Source of the DNA: a virus
Length of the DNA: 23,851 bases
Reading direction: 5' to 3' (one strand)
Virus record (IMG/VR): IMGVR_UViG_3300024346_000508
Location: 1-23,851 of that record
Shown one piece after another: positions 5,850-20,575 of the stretch. How positions within the stretch are numbered: the stretch's first letter is position 1; every line of letters begins with the position of its first letter. Under the pieces are notes generated by a model. It saw nothing but the letters and a program-made list of their open reading frames with translations. It did not search any database and was not told the origin of the DNA. The position numbers and the translations under genes are program-made.

Positions 5850-8255
5850 ATGGCAGAAAGAATAGTAAGTCCTGGAGTATTTACAAGAGAAAAGGATTTG
5901 TCGTTTCTACCTCAAGGGATTGGTGAAATTGGAGCAGCATTAGTAGGGTCAACAGTTAAAGGCCCAGCATTCGTTCCAACTCAAGTAGACTCATTTCAAA
6001 AGTTTCAGCAAGTATTCGGTGGATTGACAGAAGATTCATATCTACCATATACCGCTCAAGCTTATTTGGAAGATGCAGGAACTGCAACAATCGTTAGAGT
6101 ATTAGGACAAGATGGATACACTCTTGAGAATCCAATTGTATTAACAGTATCATCATCAGATGGTACAAAAGTTGCTGCAATTATCCACCCAACAACACAA
6201 ATTACATCAGATGTTGATGTATTTAATTTTTCATCAATATCAGACCACTTTGGAAGTACAGAAGTATCTGCATCCCAATTTACATTGCAAGTATCGGGTT
6301 CATCCACTGGAGTAGCTACTAATGTTAGTGCTTCATTAAACCCAACAAGTGATGATTATTACACAAAATCATTTGGATTTTCTCCAAAAGGTGATGGTAA
6401 AGGATATGTTTTAGCAAACTTTAAAACATTCCAATCAGCTTCATTTGCTAATGATGGTGAGATTCCTGTAGTAACAATAGATGTTGCTAAGGATATTGAT
6501 TACTCAAAAGCATATACTGAAGCAAACACACCTTGGGTTACATCACAAAAAGTTGGTGGTAATACATCAAACTTAATTAAATTCCATACATTATCACATG
6601 GTACATCTACTAACTATGAATTCAAAGTAGGAATACAAGATATCAAACCAGCTGGTTCGGTTCCTGGTTCTGAGTACGGTTCATTTACTGTAGTTGTAAG
6701 AAGAGTAGACCAAGATAAGATTGTTGGTTCACCATATGTTAATGTTACGGATTCGGATATTAGACCAAATATTGTTGAACAATTTCAAGGAGTTAACTTA
6801 AATCCTGATTCACCAAACTTTATCGCAAGAGTGATTGGTGATAAGTACATTACAGTTGATTCAGATGGGAAACTTTCAACTAACGGAGATTATCCAAACA
6901 ATTCAGAAAACATTAGAGTAGAAGTATCTGCTGCAGTAAGAGATGGAGCTATTGATGAATCATTAGTACCATTCGGATTCGCAGCATTACAAAATCCATT
7001 TGGAAGTGGTGTTTCATTACCAAATCCAACTTACATAGGTACTCAGTTAATCAATCAATCATATAATCCAAAGAAATTCTTAGGATTTGATTTTGATTTT
7101 GCAAGTACTGATAATAGAAACTTCTTATTACCTACACCAGATAGTTCAACCGCAATAGTGGGAACAGCTTTCTATTTAGGTGATTACTCACAAAACGTAA
7201 ACGCTAACTTCCCATCATCAGCATCACCATATAGTAGTACTATTAACTTGAATGATTTAGAAACATCTATTAATTCAAGAAAATTCGTAGTACCATTTCA
7301 AGGTGGATTTGATGGATACAAACCAAATAGAATAGTTTCTATGGGTAGTGATATCACTGCAGGAAATACACAAGGGTATGATTGTTCTTCTAACACCGCA
7401 ACTGGTACAGTTGGATTCAGAAAAGCAATTAACTCAGTATCTAATCCTGATGAATTTGATATCAATATGTTAGTATTACCAGGTATCATCCACAGATTAC
7501 ATTCTTCAGTATCAGTATTCGCTAAAGATATGTGTGAAGATAGACAAGATGCATTCTTTATTATGGATGCTTCAGCATGGAGTGATTCAATATCTACGGC
7601 AGTTAACGCTGTTCAAGCATTTGATTCAAACTATGTTGCATCTTACTATCCTTGGGTTAAGATACTTAATACAGATAAAAACAAACCTGTTTGGGTGCCA
7701 CCATCGGTTGTACTTCCTGGCGTTATCGCATTTAACGACCAAGTAGCCGCTGAATGGTTCGCTCCTGCTGGATTGAACAGAGGTGGATTAACTTCAGTAA
7801 TTGAAGCTAAGACAAGATTAACGAGAGTTGAGAGAGATGCACTTTACGAAGGTAGATTGAATCCTATCGCTACGTTCCCTGGACAAGGTGTTACTGTATT
7901 TGGACAGAAAACATTACAAGCTAAACCATCTGCATTGGATAGAATCAATGTAAGAAGATTGTTAATTGCTGTTAAGAAGTTTATTGCTTCTTCAACTAGA
8001 TACTTAGTGTTCGAAAATAACACTGCGGCGACTAGAAACAGATTCTTATCAATCGTTAATCCTTACTTAGAATCAATTCAACAAAGACAAGGTTTATATG
8101 CATTTAAAGTGGTGATGGATGAAACCAACAACACTCCAGATGTAATTGATAGAAACATTATGGTTGGTGAGATTTTCTTACAACCAGCAAAAACAGCAGA
8201 ATTCATAGTTCTTGACTTTAACGTACTACCAACTGGGGCAGCATTTCCAGAATAG
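5850..8255 (+). CDS. gp18: Contractile tail sheath protein, T4 gp18-like
   Basis: An 801-residue protein that opens with the sheath signature SPGVFTREKDLS and LVGSTVKGPAFVPTQV, then FGG...YLPYTAQAYLEDAG. The conserved C-terminal core (about residues 560-800) includes PPSVVLPGVIAFND, WFAPAGLNRG, ARLTRVERD-type (here TRLTRVERDALYEGRLNPI), DRINVRRLL and a final Ile/Leu-rich strand segment. These are the parts that interlock between sheath rings and that every contractile sheath shares. It is longer than T4 gp18 (659 residues); the extra length is in the middle, where variable surface domains are normally inserted. It is the driver of tail contraction. It has its own late-type promoter and is closed by a strong terminator, consistent with very high expression. 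Confidence 0.93.
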   Translation: MAERIVSPGVFTREKDLSFLPQGIGEIGAALVGSTVKGPAFVPTQVDSFQKFQQVFGGLTEDSYLPYTAQAYLEDAGTATIVRVLGQDGYTLENPIVLTVSSSDGTKVAAIIHPTTQITSDVDVFNFSSISDHFGSTEVSASQFTLQVSGSSTGVATNVSASLNPTSDDYYTKSFGFSPKGDGKGYVLANFKTFQSASFANDGEIPVVTIDVAKDIDYSKAYTEANTPWVTSQKVGGNTSNLIKFHTLSHGTSTNYEFKVGIQDIKPAGSVPGSEYGSFTVVVRRVDQDKIVGSPYVNVTDSDIRPNIVEQFQGVNLNPDSPNFIARVIGDKYITVDSDGKLSTNGDYPNNSENIRVEVSAAVRDGAIDESLVPFGFAALQNPFGSGVSLPNPTYIGTQLINQSYNPKKFLGFDFDFASTDNRNFLLPTPDSSTAIVGTAFYLGDYSQNVNANFPSSASPYSSTINLNDLETSINSRKFVVPFQGGFDGYKPNRIVSMGSDITAGNTQGYDCSSNTATGTVGFRKAINSVSNPDEFDINMLVLPGIIHRLHSSVSVFAKDMCEDRQDAFFIMDASAWSDSISTAVNAVQAFDSNYVASYYPWVKILNTDKNKPVWVPPSVVLPGVIAFNDQVAAEWFAPAGLNRGGLTSVIEAKTRLTRVERDALYEGRLNPIATFPGQGVTVFGQKTLQAKPSALDRINVRRLLIAVKKFIASSTRYLVFENNTAATRNRFLSIVNPYLESIQQRQGLYAFKVVMDETNNTPDVIDRNIMVGEIFLQPAKTAEFIVLDFNVLPTGAAFPE

Positions 8256-8359: not shown

Positions 8360-8848
8360 ATGGCACAACTATTAGACCCAACAGAAGTAATGTTCACATC
8401 ATTCGAACCGAAGATGTCGAACAGATTTATTATGTACATTGAGGGTATCCCAGCGTATTTAATAAAAGCCGCTAACAGACCAGAAATAACAAACGGAAAG
8501 GTTACAATTGACCACGTTAACGTTAGAAGATATGTTAAAGGTAGAAGTGAGTGGAGTGATTTAACGATTTCACTATATGACCCAGTAGTTCCTTCAGCAG
8601 CACAAGCAGCTATGGAATGGGTAAGATTACACCACGAATCAGTAACGGGCCGAGATGGTTACTCTGATTTCTACAAAAAAGATATCACATTTAACAGTTT
8701 GGGTCCTGTTGGTGATAAAGTAGAAGAGTGGACACTTAAAGGTGCATATATCCAAACCGCAAAGTTCTCAGATATGGACTATACTGGTGAAGATTTGGCA
8801 ACTGTAGATTTAACACTTACATACGATTACGCAATACTACAATACTAA
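8360..8848 (+). CDS. gp19: Tail tube protein, T4 gp19-like
   Basis: A 162-residue protein, the same size as T4 gp19 (163). The start is typical of tube proteins: FEPKMSNRFIMYIEGIPAYLIKAANRPEI, followed by DHVNVRRYVKGRSEWSDLTISLYDPVVPS and a C-terminal LTYDYAILQY. The NRF...I.GIPA...K...RP pattern is characteristic of gp19-type tubes. It polymerises as hexameric rings on the tape measure to form the DNA conduit inside the sheath. It is its own transcription unit, flanked by terminators at 8276 and 8881. Confidence 0.92.
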   Translation: MAQLLDPTEVMFTSFEPKMSNRFIMYIEGIPAYLIKAANRPEITNGKVTIDHVNVRRYVKGRSEWSDLTISLYDPVVPSAAQAAMEWVRLHHESVTGRDGYSDFYKKDITFNSLGPVGDKVEEWTLKGAYIQTAKFSDMDYTGEDLATVDLTLTYDYAILQY

Positions 8849-8982: not shown

Positions 8983-9870
8983 ATGAGTAAAGAAAATTTA
9001 ACAGATGAATACCAGAGTAATCTTTCCAACGATGAAATGGTGGAACTTGCTAAGAAACAATACGAAACAAAGCAAGTATCCGATTATAAATTTCCAACTG
9101 AATTAGTAGATTTACCATCTAAAGGATTAATTTATCCTAAAGATAATCCATTATCTTCAGGTAAAGTGGAAATGAAGTATATGACAGCTAAAGAAGAAGA
9201 TATCTTAACTACACAATCATATATAAAAGATGGAACAGTATTAGATAGATTATTTCAATCACTAATCATAGGTAATGGAGATGGAACTCCAATCAAATAC
9301 ATAGATTTAACTACAGGTGATAAGAACGCAATTATGATTGCTGCCAGAGTATTAGGATATGGTAAAGATTACAAAGTAGAGATACAAGACCCATTTACAG
9401 ATAATAAGCAAGAAGAGGTTATTGATTTAACTCAATTCGAAAATAGTGAATATGATGGTTCTAATCAAACAGAATTACATAAGAATGAGTTTGAGTTTGA
9501 ATTACCTAAGTCTAAGAGAAAAATTACTTTTCAAGCAATGACTGAATCAAAAGAAAGAAAAGTAAAACATCAAATAAAGGCCATTGAAAAGGCAAGTAGA
9601 AAAACTAAAGATGTAACATCAAGAGAACTAACTACAAGATTAAAGAATATGATTCTTTCAGTAGATGGGGAATCTGATGAAACAATTATTAAAAACTTTG
9701 TAGACAATGAATTATTTGCGTTAGACTCACAATCTCTCAGAGCGTATATTAATGATATAATTCCAGACATTGATTTAACATATGAATTTGTATCTGAAGA
9801 GACTGGGGAAAGGAGAGAAATGCTACTGCCAATGGATGCGGGGTTTTTTTGGCCTTCATCAAAGTTATAG
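8983..9870 (+). CDS. gp26: Baseplate hub protein, T4 gp26-like (T4_baseplate family)
   Basis: A 295-residue protein. The N-terminal part after a short acidic leader reads FPTELVDLPSKGLIYPKDNPLSSGKVEMKYMTAKEED, with YIKDGTVLDRLFQSLI and AARVLGYGKDYKVEIQDPF behind it. The LPSKG..YP...PL.SG.VE.KYMTAKEEDIL core is the hallmark of the T4 baseplate family that includes gp26; T4 gp26 is 208 residues, so this one has an extra C-terminal helical region rich in charged residues. It is thought to act in baseplate hub assembly. The last residues, DAGFFWPSSKL, end 35 bases inside a second gene read in the +1 frame, at a T-rich slippery sequence; see that entry. Confidence 0.75.
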   Translation: MSKENLTDEYQSNLSNDEMVELAKKQYETKQVSDYKFPTELVDLPSKGLIYPKDNPLSSGKVEMKYMTAKEEDILTTQSYIKDGTVLDRLFQSLIIGNGDGTPIKYIDLTTGDKNAIMIAARVLGYGKDYKVEIQDPFTDNKQEEVIDLTQFENSEYDGSNQTELHKNEFEFELPKSKRKITFQAMTESKERKVKHQIKAIEKASRKTKDVTSRELTTRLKNMILSVDGESDETIIKNFVDNELFALDSQSLRAYINDIIPDIDLTYEFVSEETGERREMLLPMDAGFFWPSSKL

Positions 9871-10057
9871 AAAGCATTTACACTCTCACATTTTTGACCT
9901 CATTTATCATGGAAATGGTGGATTCAATTTTACGGATGTTTACAATATGCCAATATGGGTTCGTAAGTTCTACATCGGTAAAATAATTGAATTTAAACAG
10001 GAAGAAAAAAAGGCTAATGATAAAGAAATGAGAAAAGCTAAATCAAAATCAAGATAA
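9836..10057 (+). CDS. Overlapping +1-frame partner of the gp26-like gene (possible hub assembly chaperone, frameshift product)
   Basis: This frame overlaps the 3' end of the gp26-like gene. The first in-frame ATG with a modest overlap is at 9836, giving 73 residues; an ATG at 9782 in the same frame would give 91 but adds a stretch with unconvincing composition. The protein-like part begins near SYRKHLHSHIFDLIYHGNGGF, then FTDVYNMPIWVRKFYIGKI and a Lys/Glu-rich helix. A short hub-assembly protein following gp26 is expected in marine T4-like phages (gp51-like), but I cannot prove that identity. Neither start has a well-spaced ribosome-binding sequence, while the zero frame contains TTT TTT T GG at 9844-9850, where a +1 slip would fuse both proteins. 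So it may be made by reinitiation, or as the C-terminal part of a 357-residue fusion. Confidence 0.6.
   Translation: MRGFFGLHQSYRKHLHSHIFDLIYHGNGGFNFTDVYNMPIWVRKFYIGKIIEFKQEEKKANDKEMRKAKSKSR
9841..9853 (+). other. Candidate +1 frameshift site (seven-T run)
   Basis: In the gp26-like frame the codons are GGG TTT TTT TGG. A tRNA-Phe on the second TTT can move one base forward onto another perfect TTT, after which translation continues GGC CTT CAT in the frame of the downstream gene. The zero frame stops 17 bases later (TAG at 9868-9870). Confidence 0.45.
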
Positions 10058-10339: not shown

Positions 10340-12835
10340 ATGGCCACAAAATCACCAGAAGAACAAGCGGCATACTTGAAAGGTATGCAATCCTACACCA
10401 AAGGTGTTGTAGACGATATGAAAGCCGTTGATGGGTTATCTAAATCTACTTCAAAGAAGATGGAAAACATTCTTTCTTCTATGAAAGGACAAGGTTCTGC
10501 GGCTGGTGCTTTACAAGCTCTACAAGCTAAAAGAGCAGAATTCATCGAAACAGAAGTAAAAGCAGGTAGAAAAATAGCTAAAGCAGCTTTAGAGCGGTTG
10601 GACCTTACAGAGCGACTTTTAAAGAAAAAAGCTGAAATGGAAACCATTGAAGGAAACATAAAAGATATAGGACAAGATTTCGCCAAAGATTTAGGTTCTG
10701 TAGTTGGGTTATCAGGTCAGGTCACGAATGCACTTATGAATGTGGGTTTTAAATTAGCAGCTTTACTTTTAATAAAAGAAGTTCTTTCATACTTTTTGCA
10801 AACTTTTACCGCCGCCAAAGGCCTTAGTACTGAATTAGGTATTGGATATGGTGAAGCTGCCAAACTCTCTGCTCAAGCAAAAATAGCTTCCTTATCTTTC
10901 GAAGGTATGATGTTAGGTGGTGAAAAACTAAACTCAGCAATGCAGAATCTTGTTAAAACTACAGGTAATGTAAGAATGTCTAATCGAATGATTAAAGATG
11001 TTGCTATGTTAACCGAACAACTCGGTTCAACTGATGCTGTAAGTTTAACTCGTTCATTAGATAATGCTGGTCATAGTACAAAAGAATTGATGGCGTTTGC
11101 AAAAGAACACGCCGAACTAGTTGGTGGAACTTCTGCTGATGGTATGAAATTCTTAGCTCAGAATCAGTTTGCTCTAAACGATATGACTGAGGATGATATA
11201 AAACTTCAAATTGAAAAAGGTATTCGTATGAAGCAAATTGGTGCTGATATGGAGGCCGTCAACAAACTTGCGAGTGAGGCATTAGATATTGAATCATCTA
11301 TTAAAAATGAGATGAAACTCAGAATGATGACCGGTAAAGATATCAATATGAATGCCCTCAGAGCCGCTCAAGTATCTGGTGATTCTGCAAAAATAGCAGA
11401 AGAACAGGCAAAGTTAATAAAAGATTTAGGACCATCTCTCGCTACCAATCTTCAAATGCAAAGATTAATCGGTGATGCCACAGGTATGAGTAAAGAACAA
11501 ATGTTAAACTATGCAAATGCCACAGGTGAAGCGGGTGATAGACTGAAAGATAATACAGCTGAGGCCGGAATGTTAAACGGAATGTTTGATGGTATGGGTA
11601 ATATAGTAGGAACTGTTTTATTGGCCATTGCTGGATTAGGAGTAGCAATGTTAGCATTGTGGGGAATATCAAAATTATTCGCTTTCTTTAAATTAGGTAA
11701 TCCTGTTACAGGTTTTATTAAGGATTTTGGTGATAAAGATGTACTTTTTGGTGCTGCCACTATGGTATTAATAGCTGGTTCGATGTTAATATTCGCAATG
11801 GCGATGGGTAAATTTGGTGAAGTTATTAGTATGGACACTATTGGTAGTGTAGTAGCTGGTTTAGTATTATTCGGTGTTACAATGGCCATATTTGGGAGTT
11901 TACTTTCTACAGCAACTGTGGCTCTAATATATGGTGGAGTTGGGTTGTTAGCAATTTCAGCAGCAATGTTAGTATTTGGATTCGCACTTCAGGCCATTGG
12001 TAAAGGTTTAGAAGTACTTGCCGGATTATCTGAAAGTCTTGGTGATTTACTATTAGTAGCAATTGCTTTAGTTCCAATTGGAGTGGCACTATTGGCATTT
12101 TCCATAATGGCCGCCGCTTCCGCTCCTTTTCTTGTAATTGCTGGAATTGGGTTCTTAGCATTTGGATTGGCATTAATTGGATTAGGTGTTGGTATGAGTG
12201 TGATAGGTGCTCTTTTACCAGTATTTGTTGCAGGATTAACATCGTTAGCTAGTATCGCTGGTGAATTACCATCATTGGCCTTAGGATTAGGTTTACTTGG
12301 TGTGGCATTAATTCCATTTGGATATGCTATGGGTTTAATGGCAGTTGCACTTCCTGGTTTATTAATATTTGCTGGTGGTTTAATTTTAGTAGGATTGGCG
12401 TTATCATCAATGAGTGGTGGAATGGATATATTAAATGGAATGTCCCAATCCGTAGGAATGTTGATAAGTTTAGTTCCTGGTTTATTTTCTCTGGCAACTG
12501 CATTTGGAGCATTAGGTTTAGGATTGGTAGGATTGAGTTATGGATTGGCCGCCGTTGGTTTATCATTACCTGTATTATTGGCATTAAGTATGGCCTTACC
12601 TATAATCGCTGATGCTTTAGGATTCGGTGGTGGTGATTCAGAATCCTCTTCATCGGAAACTACAGATGGTGGTGGTATGAGTGAAGTAGTTAGTGCTATT
12701 AAATCTTTAGATGAAGCTGTAAGAACTCAACCTATAGTGTTACAGGTTAATAATAAAACAGTACAGGTTCTAAGAAGAAAAATTGAAGAATCTCAATCGA
12801 TTGGTAATACTCAAAAAAGTGGGGGAAATAAATAA
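10340..12835 (+). CDS. Tail tape-measure protein
   Basis: An 831-residue protein. The N-terminal 400 residues are helical with long Lys/Glu/Ala coiled-coil runs (about 20-120) and one hydrophobic segment near 140-155. Residues about 420-760 are a series of very hydrophobic Gly/Ala/Leu segments (for example VLLAIAGLGVAMLALWGI), enough for eight or more membrane spans. It closes with a soluble QPIVLQVNNKTVQVLRRKIEE tail that likely contacts the baseplate hub. Long helical sequence plus a block of hydrophobic segments, placed after tube and hub genes, is the usual shape of a tape measure, which sets tail length and is ejected into the cell envelope; T4's equivalent is gp29 (590 residues). Its stop overlaps the next start by one base (TAATG). 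It has AGG ahead of its ATG. Confidence 0.8.
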   Translation: MATKSPEEQAAYLKGMQSYTKGVVDDMKAVDGLSKSTSKKMENILSSMKGQGSAAGALQALQAKRAEFIETEVKAGRKIAKAALERLDLTERLLKKKAEMETIEGNIKDIGQDFAKDLGSVVGLSGQVTNALMNVGFKLAALLLIKEVLSYFLQTFTAAKGLSTELGIGYGEAAKLSAQAKIASLSFEGMMLGGEKLNSAMQNLVKTTGNVRMSNRMIKDVAMLTEQLGSTDAVSLTRSLDNAGHSTKELMAFAKEHAELVGGTSADGMKFLAQNQFALNDMTEDDIKLQIEKGIRMKQIGADMEAVNKLASEALDIESSIKNEMKLRMMTGKDINMNALRAAQVSGDSAKIAEEQAKLIKDLGPSLATNLQMQRLIGDATGMSKEQMLNYANATGEAGDRLKDNTAEAGMLNGMFDGMGNIVGTVLLAIAGLGVAMLALWGISKLFAFFKLGNPVTGFIKDFGDKDVLFGAATMVLIAGSMLIFAMAMGKFGEVISMDTIGSVVAGLVLFGVTMAIFGSLLSTATVALIYGGVGLLAISAAMLVFGFALQAIGKGLEVLAGLSESLGDLLLVAIALVPIGVALLAFSIMAAASAPFLVIAGIGFLAFGLALIGLGVGMSVIGALLPVFVAGLTSLASIAGELPSLALGLGLLGVALIPFGYAMGLMAVALPGLLIFAGGLILVGLALSSMSGGMDILNGMSQSVGMLISLVPGLFSLATAFGALGLGLVGLSYGLAAVGLSLPVLLALSMALPIIADALGFGGGDSESSSSETTDGGGMSEVVSAIKSLDEAVRTQPIVLQVNNKTVQVLRRKIEESQSIGNTQKSGGNK

Positions 12836-15800
12836 TGGCACTTAAAGATATGAAATCGGATTTGTCCAAATTTAGAATGCCAAAGAAAGAACCTTTACAA
12901 TCTAAAGAAAGAGTTGATGTTAATAAGAACTTAAATAAAACACCTTTAAGTTCAATGGCTGAATCTGCTCCTAAGATTCCACGTTCTACTACTACAGTTA
13001 ATAAAGAAGGTGTAAATCCTCAAAAAGTAAACCAATCAGAAAAGTTTAAAGGTGAAACTTCACCTCAACCTATGGATAACTCAGAAAAGTTCTTAGGTGA
13101 AACAACTACTAAACCAATGAGTTTAGAAGAAAGATATTTAGGTCAAACCGACCCTACAAAAGCAAATAACTCAGAACAGTTCTTAGGAGAAACTACTCCT
13201 AAATCAATGAACAATCAATCTCAGTTTTTAGGTGAAACAACTCCTAAACAAGCTAATAATAAAATACAGTTCTTAGGAGAAACAACTCCTAAGCAGGCAG
13301 ATAATGAATCTAAGTTCTTAGGTGAAACAACACCGAATGAATCTGATAGAAGTTCTAAGTTCTTAGGTGAAACAACACCGAATGAATCTGATAAGAGTTC
13401 TAAGTTCTTAGGTGAAACAACACCAACTGAGATGAATAATCAAAGTAACTTCTTAGGTGAAACAACACCAACTGAAGCAAACAATCAATCTCAGTTCTTA
13501 GGTGAAACAACACCAACTGAAGCAAACAATCAATCTCAGTTCTTAGGTGAAACTACTCCACTATCATCAGATAGAAGTTCTAAATTTTTAGGAGAAACAA
13601 CACCAACTCCAATGAATATTCCAAATGGTGAAAACGGATTGGGTGAAACAACACCAAGTGATTTTTCATTTAAAAATAAATTAGAGAACGAAGGAAAAGA
13701 TTTTAAAGAAGTAAACTATTTTCAAGATATTCATTCAAAAGGATTCACATCTAGATTCGGTGGAGTTGAGGCAACTAAGTTTGTTGGTGTAAATCCTAAC
13801 AATACTGTATTTGATAGTACAAATTCATTGTATTCTAATCCTAACAATTTTTTACATAAAGGTAAATTTACATTAGGTTCTACATATAGTAAATCATTCA
13901 ATGATGTAGCAGGATTGAATTCAGGAGAAGAAGGATTTGGACTTGGTAAAGGACATGCTCAACGAAAATCACCATCATTTTTAGATGAAATGTACAGTAA
14001 GTTTAATCTTAAAGATGATTCATTTAATAGAGGATTAGGTTTATTCAGACAACCATTTATATTAAGAGGTATCCAACGAAGAAAAGTTTCTAAAGGAGAA
14101 CCACAGGTTTGGGGACTGGGTGGATTTAATTATGATGAAGGTGCTATCAGAGGTGGTATCGTTACATCAACTGTTAGAGCACTTATAGATGTTGCTAGAA
14201 TCGGTAGTTGGTTCGCATCTGTTCCTGGTATATTATGGGGAGCAAAACAATTCGGAATGCAACGTCAACAACAGTTTGGAAAATTATGGACACCTGTTAA
14301 TATGTTGGCTGCAATTGGTGGACAACATATTGGTTTAAAACCTATGAGAGCTGGTCTAATACCATTAGATGACCCAACTGTAAAATATGGAACTATTCTA
14401 AAAGGATATGAAGTTGCAGAAAATGCTGGGTTTCTTGCAAAAAAGGCAGCTTCCTTATTAGCTCAGTATGATACCTTAGATATAGTATATGGAAAAACTG
14501 TAAAAGGTTTTAAATTTAAAAACGGTGTTGGTGATACTTGGAAATCTGATAAACAAGGTGGTTTTAATTCACTATATGGTATAAACATAACAGGTCCAAG
14601 TGAACATAGAAGATATGTAAATACATTTGCAAATCAATCAAAAGATAACGCAGCTGATAAGGCCAACTATAAACAAAAGTTTAATCCTTTAACAGAGGCT
14701 ATGAAAACAGGTGATGTATCACTAAGAGATACATATGTTCAAGAAGGTAGTACGTTTGAGCCAGGTAAAACACCCATAGGTGAAGATATAGGTTCTGTAG
14801 ATAAGGTATCTGGAACTGATTATCTTAAAAGAAGATATGATACTAGTAACAAGCAGGAAAATCCAGATGATTTTGCTGGAAGAAAATATGATAACGAAGT
14901 TCCGTATAGATTCACACAAACAACCACATCAGAAGGTACAGTAGATGATTTTGCAAAAGAAACTGATTTAGGTCTAAACGCAAATAACTTACCAGCTTCG
15001 TTTTTAAATAATAAAATAAGAACTGAAGATGGTGACCCTCATAATCTAGAAAAGAAGGGGAGTGATACGGAACTTACTATAAGAGATTACGAAACAATCG
15101 CATATGGTAATATACCCAAAAGAGGAACTAACGATGGCCTAATAGATTTTAGAAGTTTATTAACTGGTAATGAAAAGAAAAGGGCTGACGTTTCTAAATA
15201 TTCAGAAAATCGATTAGAAGTAAAGAGTGGATTTAATACTCCTGGTTTAGTTGGAGCGGATAGAACAGATTATACAAAAGATACAACAAGATTTGATGCA
15301 GTACAGGCATTAAGGCCAGTTGCAACTAAAGCTGAGTTAAAAAATGATTTGGTTAAATTTTACTTACAACCTATTAGTAAAAAAGATACAGGTGATGAGT
15401 TTTATCAATTCAGAGGTACTGTGAATGGTATAACAGAAACATTCTCACCATCTTGGGATTCTTTAAAATTTAGTGGTAGAGCAGACCAAGGATACAAATA
15501 TAGTTCATTTGAAAGAAGTGTATCTTTTAATTTCAAAATGTGGGCAACTTCTCGTACTGAGATGAAACCTATGTATGAAAAATTAGAAGCTCTTTCTACA
15601 TTTACAATGCCATTGTATAGAGGTTCAACAGCTTATCAAGGAATTTTAGTAAAAATGACATTAGGTGATTTGTATGTAGATAAATTAACATTTATTGAAT
15701 CACTTTCATATTCATTTCCAGATGAAGCACCTTGGGATGTTAATTTAGATGGAAGTGATTTGGGAGTTAGACCTATGGGTATCGATATTTCAATCGGATT

Positions 15801-15864
15801 TAAAATATTAGATGATGTAAGACCTGAGTACAAAGCTCAAGTTTATGATTTAGGGTGGAGATAA
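12835..15864 (+). CDS. Large baseplate-associated protein with FLGETTP repeats
   Basis: A 1009-residue protein in three parts. Residues 1-70 are Lys/Ser/Pro-rich. Residues 71 to about 276 are a tandem array of 15-residue units beginning FLGETTP. Residues about 400-490 contain a Gly-rich/hydrophobic stretch (WGLGGFNYDEGAIRGG, then DVARIGSWFASVPGILWGAKQFG) similar in style to a region found in large baseplate proteins of other phages of this group. The C-terminal 170 residues (from about 836) are beta-rich, FYLQPISKKDTGDEFYQFRG to a final DLGWR, resembling a tube- or baseplate-type fold. It sits between tape measure and the LysM baseplate gene, coupled to both (1-nt overlap; 1-nt gap), so a baseplate/tail-tube-cap role (the slot of T4 gp48/gp54) is likely, though not established. 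The repeat region has no counterpart I recognise. Confidence 0.7.
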   Translation: MALKDMKSDLSKFRMPKKEPLQSKERVDVNKNLNKTPLSSMAESAPKIPRSTTTVNKEGVNPQKVNQSEKFKGETSPQPMDNSEKFLGETTTKPMSLEERYLGQTDPTKANNSEQFLGETTPKSMNNQSQFLGETTPKQANNKIQFLGETTPKQADNESKFLGETTPNESDRSSKFLGETTPNESDKSSKFLGETTPTEMNNQSNFLGETTPTEANNQSQFLGETTPTEANNQSQFLGETTPLSSDRSSKFLGETTPTPMNIPNGENGLGETTPSDFSFKNKLENEGKDFKEVNYFQDIHSKGFTSRFGGVEATKFVGVNPNNTVFDSTNSLYSNPNNFLHKGKFTLGSTYSKSFNDVAGLNSGEEGFGLGKGHAQRKSPSFLDEMYSKFNLKDDSFNRGLGLFRQPFILRGIQRRKVSKGEPQVWGLGGFNYDEGAIRGGIVTSTVRALIDVARIGSWFASVPGILWGAKQFGMQRQQQFGKLWTPVNMLAAIGGQHIGLKPMRAGLIPLDDPTVKYGTILKGYEVAENAGFLAKKAASLLAQYDTLDIVYGKTVKGFKFKNGVGDTWKSDKQGGFNSLYGINITGPSEHRRYVNTFANQSKDNAADKANYKQKFNPLTEAMKTGDVSLRDTYVQEGSTFEPGKTPIGEDIGSVDKVSGTDYLKRRYDTSNKQENPDDFAGRKYDNEVPYRFTQTTTSEGTVDDFAKETDLGLNANNLPASFLNNKIRTEDGDPHNLEKKGSDTELTIRDYETIAYGNIPKRGTNDGLIDFRSLLTGNEKKRADVSKYSENRLEVKSGFNTPGLVGADRTDYTKDTTRFDAVQALRPVATKAELKNDLVKFYLQPISKKDTGDEFYQFRGTVNGITETFSPSWDSLKFSGRADQGYKYSSFERSVSFNFKMWATSRTEMKPMYEKLEALSTFTMPLYRGSTAYQGILVKMTLGDLYVDKLTFIESLSYSFPDEAPWDVNLDGSDLGVRPMGIDISIGFKILDDVRPEYKAQVYDLGWR
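13045..13662 (+). repeat. Tandem array of 15-residue FLGETTP units
   Basis: Twelve consecutive 45-nt units start at 13045 and run to 13584, followed by a degenerate unit (FLGETTPTPMNIPNGENG) and a final LGETTP. Each unit is F/Y-L-G-E-T-T-P plus eight variable polar residues (NNQSQ, SDRSSK, KQANN). The first three are the most divergent (FKGETSP, FLGETTT, YLGQTDP). Units 10 and 11 have identical protein sequence (FLGETTPTEANNQSQ) and almost identical DNA, a recent duplication. Because the period is a multiple of three, copy number can change without breaking the frame. Confidence 0.9.
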
Positions 15865-15865
15865 G

Positions 15866-16165
15866 ATGGAAAATAGATACAGCGATATAAAAATTATTAA
15901 AACCGAGCAGGGTAAACGATACAAAAAAACTGTAGTATATCCTAAAATGATAAAAACTGTAGATGATACCTATATCATAGCTATTCAAGGTGATAGGTTG
16001 GATAATCTTGCTTATAAATATTTTGGTGATTCTAGATTATGGTGGATATTAGCCAGAGCTAATTATTTAGGTAAAGGTGATTTAACAGTTCCTATTGGTA
16101 AACAAATAAGAATCCCATCGGACTATCTATCAATAGTAGATGAATATAATACTTTAAATGAATAA
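15866..16165 (+). CDS. gp53: LysM-type baseplate wedge protein, T4 gp53-like
   Basis: A 99-residue protein whose second half is a LysM-like fold: GDRLDNLAYKYFGDSRLWWILARANYLG followed by VPIGKQIRIPSDY. The D-x-L..LA..YFGD..LWW.IA.AN pattern with a P.G..IRIP end is shared by gp53-type baseplate proteins and other small tail LysM proteins, where it holds wedge proteins together rather than binding peptidoglycan. It starts one base after the previous stop and ends five bases before the hub gene, so it belongs to one message with them. Which of the small LysM tail proteins it corresponds to is less certain than the LysM call. Confidence 0.8.
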   Translation: MENRYSDIKIIKTEQGKRYKKTVVYPKMIKTVDDTYIIAIQGDRLDNLAYKYFGDSRLWWILARANYLGKGDLTVPIGKQIRIPSDYLSIVDEYNTLNE

Positions 16166-19312: not shown

Positions 19313-20575
19313 ATGGTTAAATTTCTAAGCAGTGGTAATATCACAATGGATAAGGTATATATTCACCCTATATGGGAGAGTGTATCCGTACACCCATGCA
19401 TAGATAGTTTATCTATGTTGTACATATACGATATAACCAACGATACAGAAGTTGTAATCAACTTAAAAAATATAGACAACCAAACAACCACATTAGATAA
19501 GTTTACGTTTCAGTTCAACGAATCATATATATACGATGATAAATCGTTCTTAAACATTCTTCAGATACCGAACTCAGTTGATGCAGGTTTAGTAAAATAT
19601 TTACAATCGAATTCCCCACTACAATCTAATCTAACACCAACACATCTTTTTTATCATCGTAGATTCAATTCTCTCAAAGGTGTTAATAATCTTATTCCTA
19701 TATTAAAACACATAGAATCAATAAGAGATGTGAAAGATGAATTCCTACAGTATTACGATTTGGGTGGGGAATATTTCGATTGTGTGAAGAAATTTTCCAA
19801 TTTCTATATAAAGTCATTACACTTAGTAGAACGAAATGGGATACATACTACAAATGGGTTAGAGTGGACTCAATATCATCCGTTCACAATAACTTCTCGT
19901 CCTTCAAACAATTGGGGTGGAGTGAATTATGCCGCACTTAATAAAGATGATGGTAGTAGGGATAGATTCGTTAGTAGGTTCGAAGGGGGTAAATTGGTAC
20001 AATTCGATTACGATGCTTATCACCCACGTATTATTGGTAAGATGGTAGGTGAACCGATTCCATTGGATGTGAGTGGACACCAAACCTTAGCAGATATGTA
20101 TGGAGTACCTTATAATGATTCAAAAGCAATCACATTCCGACAATTGTATGGTGGAGTACAAGAGGAATATCTACATATTCCTTTATTCTCAAAAGTTTCA
20201 CACAAAATTGATAAAATGTGGATGGAATTTAATCGTAGGGGTTATGTTGAAACTCCATTAGGTAGAAAACTATCAAAATCTAACCTTAGAGATATGAATG
20301 CTAACAAATTATTCAACTATATGTTACAAGCTACCGAAACAGAGTTAAATATGAAGATATTAAGTAAAGTAATGGAGTATTTAAAAGAAAAACAATCAAA
20401 AATGGTTTTATATACTTATGATTCATATTTATTGGATGTACATCCTTCTGAAAATGAACTTTTAAAAAATTTAAAGATACTTATAGAAGGGAATGGATTT
20501 CCTACAAAAATAGAAATCGGAGATAGATATTCTGAAATGAAATCTATTGATTTAGAAATAACGGAACAAATATGA
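19313..20575 (+). CDS. Family A DNA polymerase-like protein without exonuclease domain
   Basis: A 420-residue protein. From residue 192 the palm and fingers of a family A polymerase can be followed: TSRPSNNWGGVN (the T-x-R-x-S...N primer/template region of Pol I), motif A FDYDAYHPRI with the catalytic Asp232, motif B K271-xxx-F275-xxx-Y279-G280 (same spacing as K758/F762/Y766 in Pol I), GYVETPLGRKL, NYMLQAT (N335, Q339, T341, as in N845/Q849/T851) and motif C YTYDS with Asp370. Deviations: the Arg four residues before K271 is Tyr, and the Glu after the motif C Asp is Ser. The N-terminal 180 residues contain no recognisable 3'-5' exonuclease motif. Both metal-binding Asp are present, so catalysis is plausible. 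I keep the longest frame; the ATG at 19346 (MDKVYIHP) is a serious alternative because the promoter overlaps the first start. T4 itself uses a family B polymerase. Its stop overlaps the next gene by four bases (ATGA). Confidence 0.78.
   Translation: MVKFLSSGNITMDKVYIHPIWESVSVHPCIDSLSMLYIYDITNDTEVVINLKNIDNQTTTLDKFTFQFNESYIYDDKSFLNILQIPNSVDAGLVKYLQSNSPLQSNLTPTHLFYHRRFNSLKGVNNLIPILKHIESIRDVKDEFLQYYDLGGEYFDCVKKFSNFYIKSLHLVERNGIHTTNGLEWTQYHPFTITSRPSNNWGGVNYAALNKDDGSRDRFVSRFEGGKLVQFDYDAYHPRIIGKMVGEPIPLDVSGHQTLADMYGVPYNDSKAITFRQLYGGVQEEYLHIPLFSKVSHKIDKMWMEFNRRGYVETPLGRKLSKSNLRDMNANKLFNYMLQATETELNMKILSKVMEYLKEKQSKMVLYTYDSYLLDVHPSENELLKNLKILIEGNGFPTKIEIGDRYSEMKSIDLEITEQI

Follow-up and report, generated by a model that had tools for sequence, protein, structure and literature searches.

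What does a chain of fifteen-residue FLGETTP repeats do in a phage protein encoded among baseplate genes, and what does each repeat bind? The prevailing view makes the tape-measure protein (TMP) the sole determinant of tail length, and the means by which the tube ends at the correct ring are a matter of debate. The repeats lie in a 23,851-base fragment of an uncultured virus (the window, i.e., the whole stretch of DNA analyzed), where the gene of the array protein (ORF 12835-15864, + strand, 1009 aa) sits between those of the TMP and a LysM baseplate protein, in the following setting:

5850..8255, + strand: tail sheath protein (58% identity to the sheath of Microcystis phage Mel-JY01; thousands of sheath matches)
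8360..8848, + strand: putative tail tube protein, 162 aa (follows the sheath, constant length; assigned by gene order, no family match)
10340..12835, + strand: TMP, 831 aa (position, homologous stretch in Mel-JY01, heptad periodicity)
15866..16165, + strand: LysM baseplate protein, gp53/A-1(L) gp16-like (phrog_7145 baseplate wedge, 1e-14)

The putative tube protein has 162 residues in 46/46 relatives measured, and the gap between the TMP and array genes ranges from -1 to +12 nt in relatives. A hub-like protein is encoded downstream of the array gene and a gp26/51-like assembly factor (phrog_150) upstream. The latter (8983-10057) occupies two overlapping frames that meet at GGGTTTTTTTGGCC, just ahead of the first stop; in 29/29 relatives the gene keeps its two ORFs, its T7-GG run and the same shift (+1 or -2), a pattern in the sequences that suggests a conserved programmed frameshift or transcriptional slippage. 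Elsewhere, positions 3-1784 of the window encode a protein resembling a tail fibre, which carries a ~315-bp tandem repeat and ends in an endosialidase-type chaperone domain (Peptidase_S74). A 420-aa protein (19313-20575) that by eye resembles the polymerase portion of family A DNA polymerases adjoins the baseplate genes; in Mel-JY01, a DNA polymerase I gene likewise lies downstream of the baseplate genes.

The repeat array

Five parts of the array protein can be told apart:

12835..13044, + strand: conserved N-terminal segment (MALKDMKSDLSKFRMPK...), residues 1-70 (invariant residues in relatives)
13045-13662, + strand: FLGETTP array, twelve 45-nt units (13045-13584) followed by a 51-nt unit and a last core, GLGETTP
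13711..13839, + strand: single B-type unit, ~41-44 aa, VNYF.DIH..GF...TKFVGV....FD..SLYSN (boundaries by eye)
13969..14394, + strand: conserved middle module, SPSFLDEMYxKF ... IRGG ... KQxGLQ, helical (invariant columns, predicted helices)
15313..15861, + strand: predicted C-terminal tube-initiator domain, residues 827-1009 (structure model, fold matches)

The initial annotation had described fifteen-residue FLGETTP repeats in twelve regular 45-nt units, and the ORF, a motif scan and Tandem Repeats Finder (scores 232-380 at a threshold of 50) bear out both the array and its coordinates. The motif scan finds 14 cores, thirteen plus a degenerate last one, spaced by 15 residues twelve times and then by 17; each FLGETTP is trailed by an eight-residue linker. 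The core, said to be strictly F/Y-L-G-E/Q-T, is better written [FY]-[LK]-G-[EQ]-T: the second residue can be L, K or sometimes I, and the seventh need not be P. A set of 401 distinct cores from relatives shows synonymous variation in the conserved codons (Gly GGT/GGA/GGG/GGC; Thr ACA/ACT/ACC/ACG), which places the conservation at the protein level. LGE fits the L-x-E cleavage site of prohead proteases; this idea was set aside, as FKGE stands in many of the units and the protein belongs to the tail.

Units 10 and 11, previously called nearly identical, are indeed close kin, and the wording was an understatement: they share 45/45 bases. Units 7 and 8 share 43/45, differing at two. The view that copy number is changing is supported; near relatives have 4-23 copies. 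The picture of a flexible string also stands: in a full-length structure prediction the array has pLDDT values of 30-45 and lacks secondary structure, and is thus predicted to be disordered. The model of the 1009-aa protein has a mean pLDDT of 41 and is informative only for the C-terminal domain and for the lack of order in the array.

Upstream of the array, residues M1, L3, K4, D5, K7, S8, L10, R14 and P16 are invariant across 21 relatives. The N-terminal segment could possibly serve as an end anchor; a similar motif, DLKSL[RK][YF], also occurs in array-less relatives, so a role as an anchor of the far end is not necessary.

A predicted tail-tube initiator

The array protein has no PHROG or Pfam match and no significant PDB sequence match, searches that distant relatives may escape. 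A model of the last 183 residues, built with 47 relatives, has a pLDDT of 85.6 and matches tube-initiator structures over 140-150 residues at Z 10-12: phage P1 9ay5_G (Z 12.0), the A-1(L) initiator 8kea_P (Z 11.0), T4 5iv5_BE (Z 10.8), which from its residue numbers we take to be gp48, and AFP/PVC (Z 10.7); Foldseek gives E 1e-6. The suggestion that the C-terminal part is of baseplate type is thereby supported. The surrounding TMP, LysM (gp53-like) and hub genes are those that accompany tail-tube initiators of the gp48/gp54 and A-1(L) gp18 type. From model and neighbourhood, the array protein is predicted to be a tail-tube initiator whose C-terminal domain would form the first tube-like ring on the baseplate.

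The protein shares the tube-like beta-barrel domain, the gene neighbourhood and, by prediction, the place as first tube ring with T4 gp48/gp54, A-1(L) gp18, the P1 baseplate tube-like protein and the AFP/PVC initiators. In contrast to A-1(L) gp18, in which the beta-barrel occupies residues 2-180 (PMC10966104), its barrel domain is C-terminal and follows ~800 residues that include an array matched to TMP length, a proxy for tail length.

Array copy number scales with TMP length

The first scan recovered forty-four related loci, and many more were added later; bacterial genome contigs yielded no relative. In a set of 53 distinct phages whose TMPs are complete, the number of FLGETTP units follows TMP length with r 0.94 (Spearman 0.93) and a slope of 30.2 TMP residues per unit (bootstrap CI 27.3-33.4); for all 66 phages together, r is 0.93. 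Phylogenetic independent contrasts, computed with floored branches on a tree of the post-array part of the array protein and tested for leverage, give r 0.88 and a slope of 25.9 (CI 21.2-30.0), with 32 concordant against 7 discordant contrasts (p = 7e-5). Dropping the top 1-10 contrasts leaves r at 0.70-0.84 (0.72 without the ten largest). A first version of the contrasts, with r 0.98, rested on very short branches, and the floored value is preferred.

Could the correlation be an effect of lineage or gene size, with an array that serves host binding, cargo or spacing by a disordered chain and has nothing to do with tail geometry? Some control proteins do show raw correlations of 0.45-0.69 before phylogenetic correction. 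These vanish in the contrasts (|r| <=0.21, none significant, for the sheath, hub, LysM protein, two other neighbours and the rest of the array protein), whereas the array-TMP link holds at 0.88-0.92 in the control-matched sets; the slope, moreover, equals the residues-per-ring value known from other tails (see below). An unrelated role is highly improbable. The array copy number and the TMP length scale together.

The fit is not perfect. Eleven later-added phages fall on the original line (RMSE 28 aa), but over all 13 later-added loci, two of which carry a third repeat type, the line has no predictive R2, in part because their range is narrow. Three comparisons show unequal unit numbers at unchanged TMP (12 vs 13 in L018/L035, 13 vs 14 in L086/L090, 14 vs 17 in L028 vs L007): either the matching is inexact or some assemblies miscount, and some of these one-to-three-unit differences may arise from metagenome assembly of repeats. 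The outliers are L134 (18 units, TMP of 788) and the two loci with the third repeat type, L259 and L264. The N-terminal parts of the TMPs of the window and L001 are strongly unlike, a difference seen between otherwise close relatives, which suggests that N-terminal TMP modules are swapped while length stays matched to the array.

Interchangeable units in the same slot

The [FY][LK]G[EQ]T core is present, in 4-23 copies, in every clade relative whose N-terminal part can be read. Other units can take its place. Mel-JY01 WWT39329 (2255 aa) is homologous to the window protein in its middle module and C-terminal part; in its clade, the same slot holds a 44-aa unit, repeated ~17-23x (~23x in Mel-JY01, a cultured phage), that is unrelated to FLGETTP and related to the single B unit that follows the window array. 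B units occur in 2-3 copies in some relatives, as counted by a simple pattern that may miss divergent units. L259 and L264 have fewer FLGETTP units, with a third, longer repeat type (~85-90 aa) replacing the FLGETTP (A) units. In the N-terminal region, L200 differs from L198 by one extra copy of a ~20-aa unit (KLDDIKKFNTKPLSGLLGKT).

The larger units obey the same arithmetic. A model that includes B units assigns 28.4 +/- 1.4 TMP residues to each A unit and 35.5 +/- 8.0 to each B unit (R2 0.92). In the five Mel-JY01-type phages (r 0.97) the TMP lengthens by 0.61 aa for every array aa, or 26.8 aa for every 44-aa unit, and the ~41-aa unit of the FLGETTP clade and the 44-aa units of the Mel-JY01 clade fit one TMP-length rule.

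The initial annotation had asked how copy number compares among phages, and whether homologues keep the C-terminal domain without repeats or vary with no conserved core. Clade members invariably retain the core. Farther away, the Mel-JY01 clade has its different repeat, and L202-L204 and Flavobacterium immuto phages have the C-terminal domain without FLGETTP; such absence is confined to distant relatives. The existence of these array-less proteins makes the array a lineage-specific addition and, given that their TMPs are also long, one that is not generally required.

A slope close to one unit per tube ring

An alpha-helix rises 1.5 Å per residue and a tube ring is ~40 Å high, which sets the expectation for a helical TMP. 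In T4, gp29 has 590 residues (PMC3185693) and the tail has 24 tube rings (PMC8718954); the A-1(L) TMP, a helical bundle modelled to residue 689, likewise spans 24 rings (PMC10966104). These tails give 25-29 TMP residues per ring, which the array slope of 26-30 TMP residues matches, pointing to about one unit per ring. A fifteen-residue unit would cover 40 Å at 2.7 Å per residue, feasible for an extended chain.

The array protein resembles the rulers T4 gp29 and lambda gpH in that its length is proportional to TMP length, a proxy for tail length, at about one unit per ring. By contrast with these TMPs, its array is built of repeats and predicted to be disordered, not helical. It was rejected as a TMP itself: the array has no predicted helix and low pLDDT, and the TMP is encoded by the neighbouring gene.

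A proposed string along the tail tube, and its alternatives

The initial annotation had each repeat docking into one copy of a repeated partner, which might be the tube, the hub, the TMP or a host or phage protein carried in the tail. The idea of one partner copy per unit is supported, most strongly by the way copy number follows TMP length at about one ring per unit; this relation speaks for the tube or the TMP rather than the hub or a carried protein. We consider it the leading explanation, somewhat more probable than not, that the N-terminal string of the initiator runs along the tail tube, one unit docking per ring, with the unit number matched to the TMP-set length. The string would start from the initiator ring and follow the growing tube, its most likely path being through the lumen alongside the tape-measure bundle; each stacked ring would receive a single unit, either FLGETTP or a larger alternative, so that the number of units would stay matched to tail length. 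Such a string would line the tube-TMP interface or lock it, and might contribute to fixing tail length or to keeping the TMP in register. The lumenal location, the docking to tube subunits and the direct role in length control are what we infer from these relations; the tube protein encoded at 8360-8848 is the proposed docking partner.

One unit per ring would be equally expected if the string lay outside the lumen, in the tube-sheath gap or on the sheath surface, and counted sheath or tube rings. The tube-initiator-like C-terminal domain, which puts the base of the string on the inner ring, and the failure to find adhesin-like or fibre features make such an external path improbable.

If the array instead bound the TMP before tube assembly, as a built-in chaperone that keeps the TMP coated and soluble and whose units are displaced when tube subunits add, its unit number would scale with TMP length just as well, the TMP being the ligand, as would be true of a TMP-coating protein like lambda gpG/gpGT; the array and TMP genes are adjacent, and TMP length varies mostly in the hydrophobic part. 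However, unit number rises at much the same rate with polar TMP residues (0.035 units per residue) as with hydrophobic ones (0.026), which weakens the idea of a hydrophobic coating, and the eight TMPs with little hydrophobic sequence follow a similar line (r 0.89, slope 31.5). No common 27-residue period that would match the unit was found in the TMPs: the strong lags vary from phage to phage (52, 56, 62, 80), and as only some of them fall near multiples of 26-28, they were left out as evidence. A separate assembly-chaperone-like gene, with its frameshift, is already present. A TMP-binding chaperone appears rather unlikely. As a gpG/gpGT-type chaperone proper the array protein was rejected: the frameshifted two-part gene before the TMP is 8983-10057, whereas the array is fused to a structural initiator and encoded by a single ORF after the TMP, with no frameshift.

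Implications for tail length

Returning to the string along the tube, we regard as plausible, and hold tentatively, the broader view that the contractile tails of these phages have a second, digital ruler or ladder: an initiator string with one docking motif per ring, built of interchangeable units (15, ~44 or more residues) whose copy number evolves with the TMP, and that helps to set or check tail length. In the open literature searched, with subscription journals outside its scope, no baseplate protein was found whose number of repeats is linked to the length of the tail; the initiator fold is known, and a tail-length-matched array of interchangeable units on an initiator is apparently undescribed there. 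An array with one unit per ring that co-evolves with the TMP would give the TMP a countable partner, making the question of tail length testable by adding or removing repeats, and would provide a readout of tail length for uncultured phages from sequence alone.
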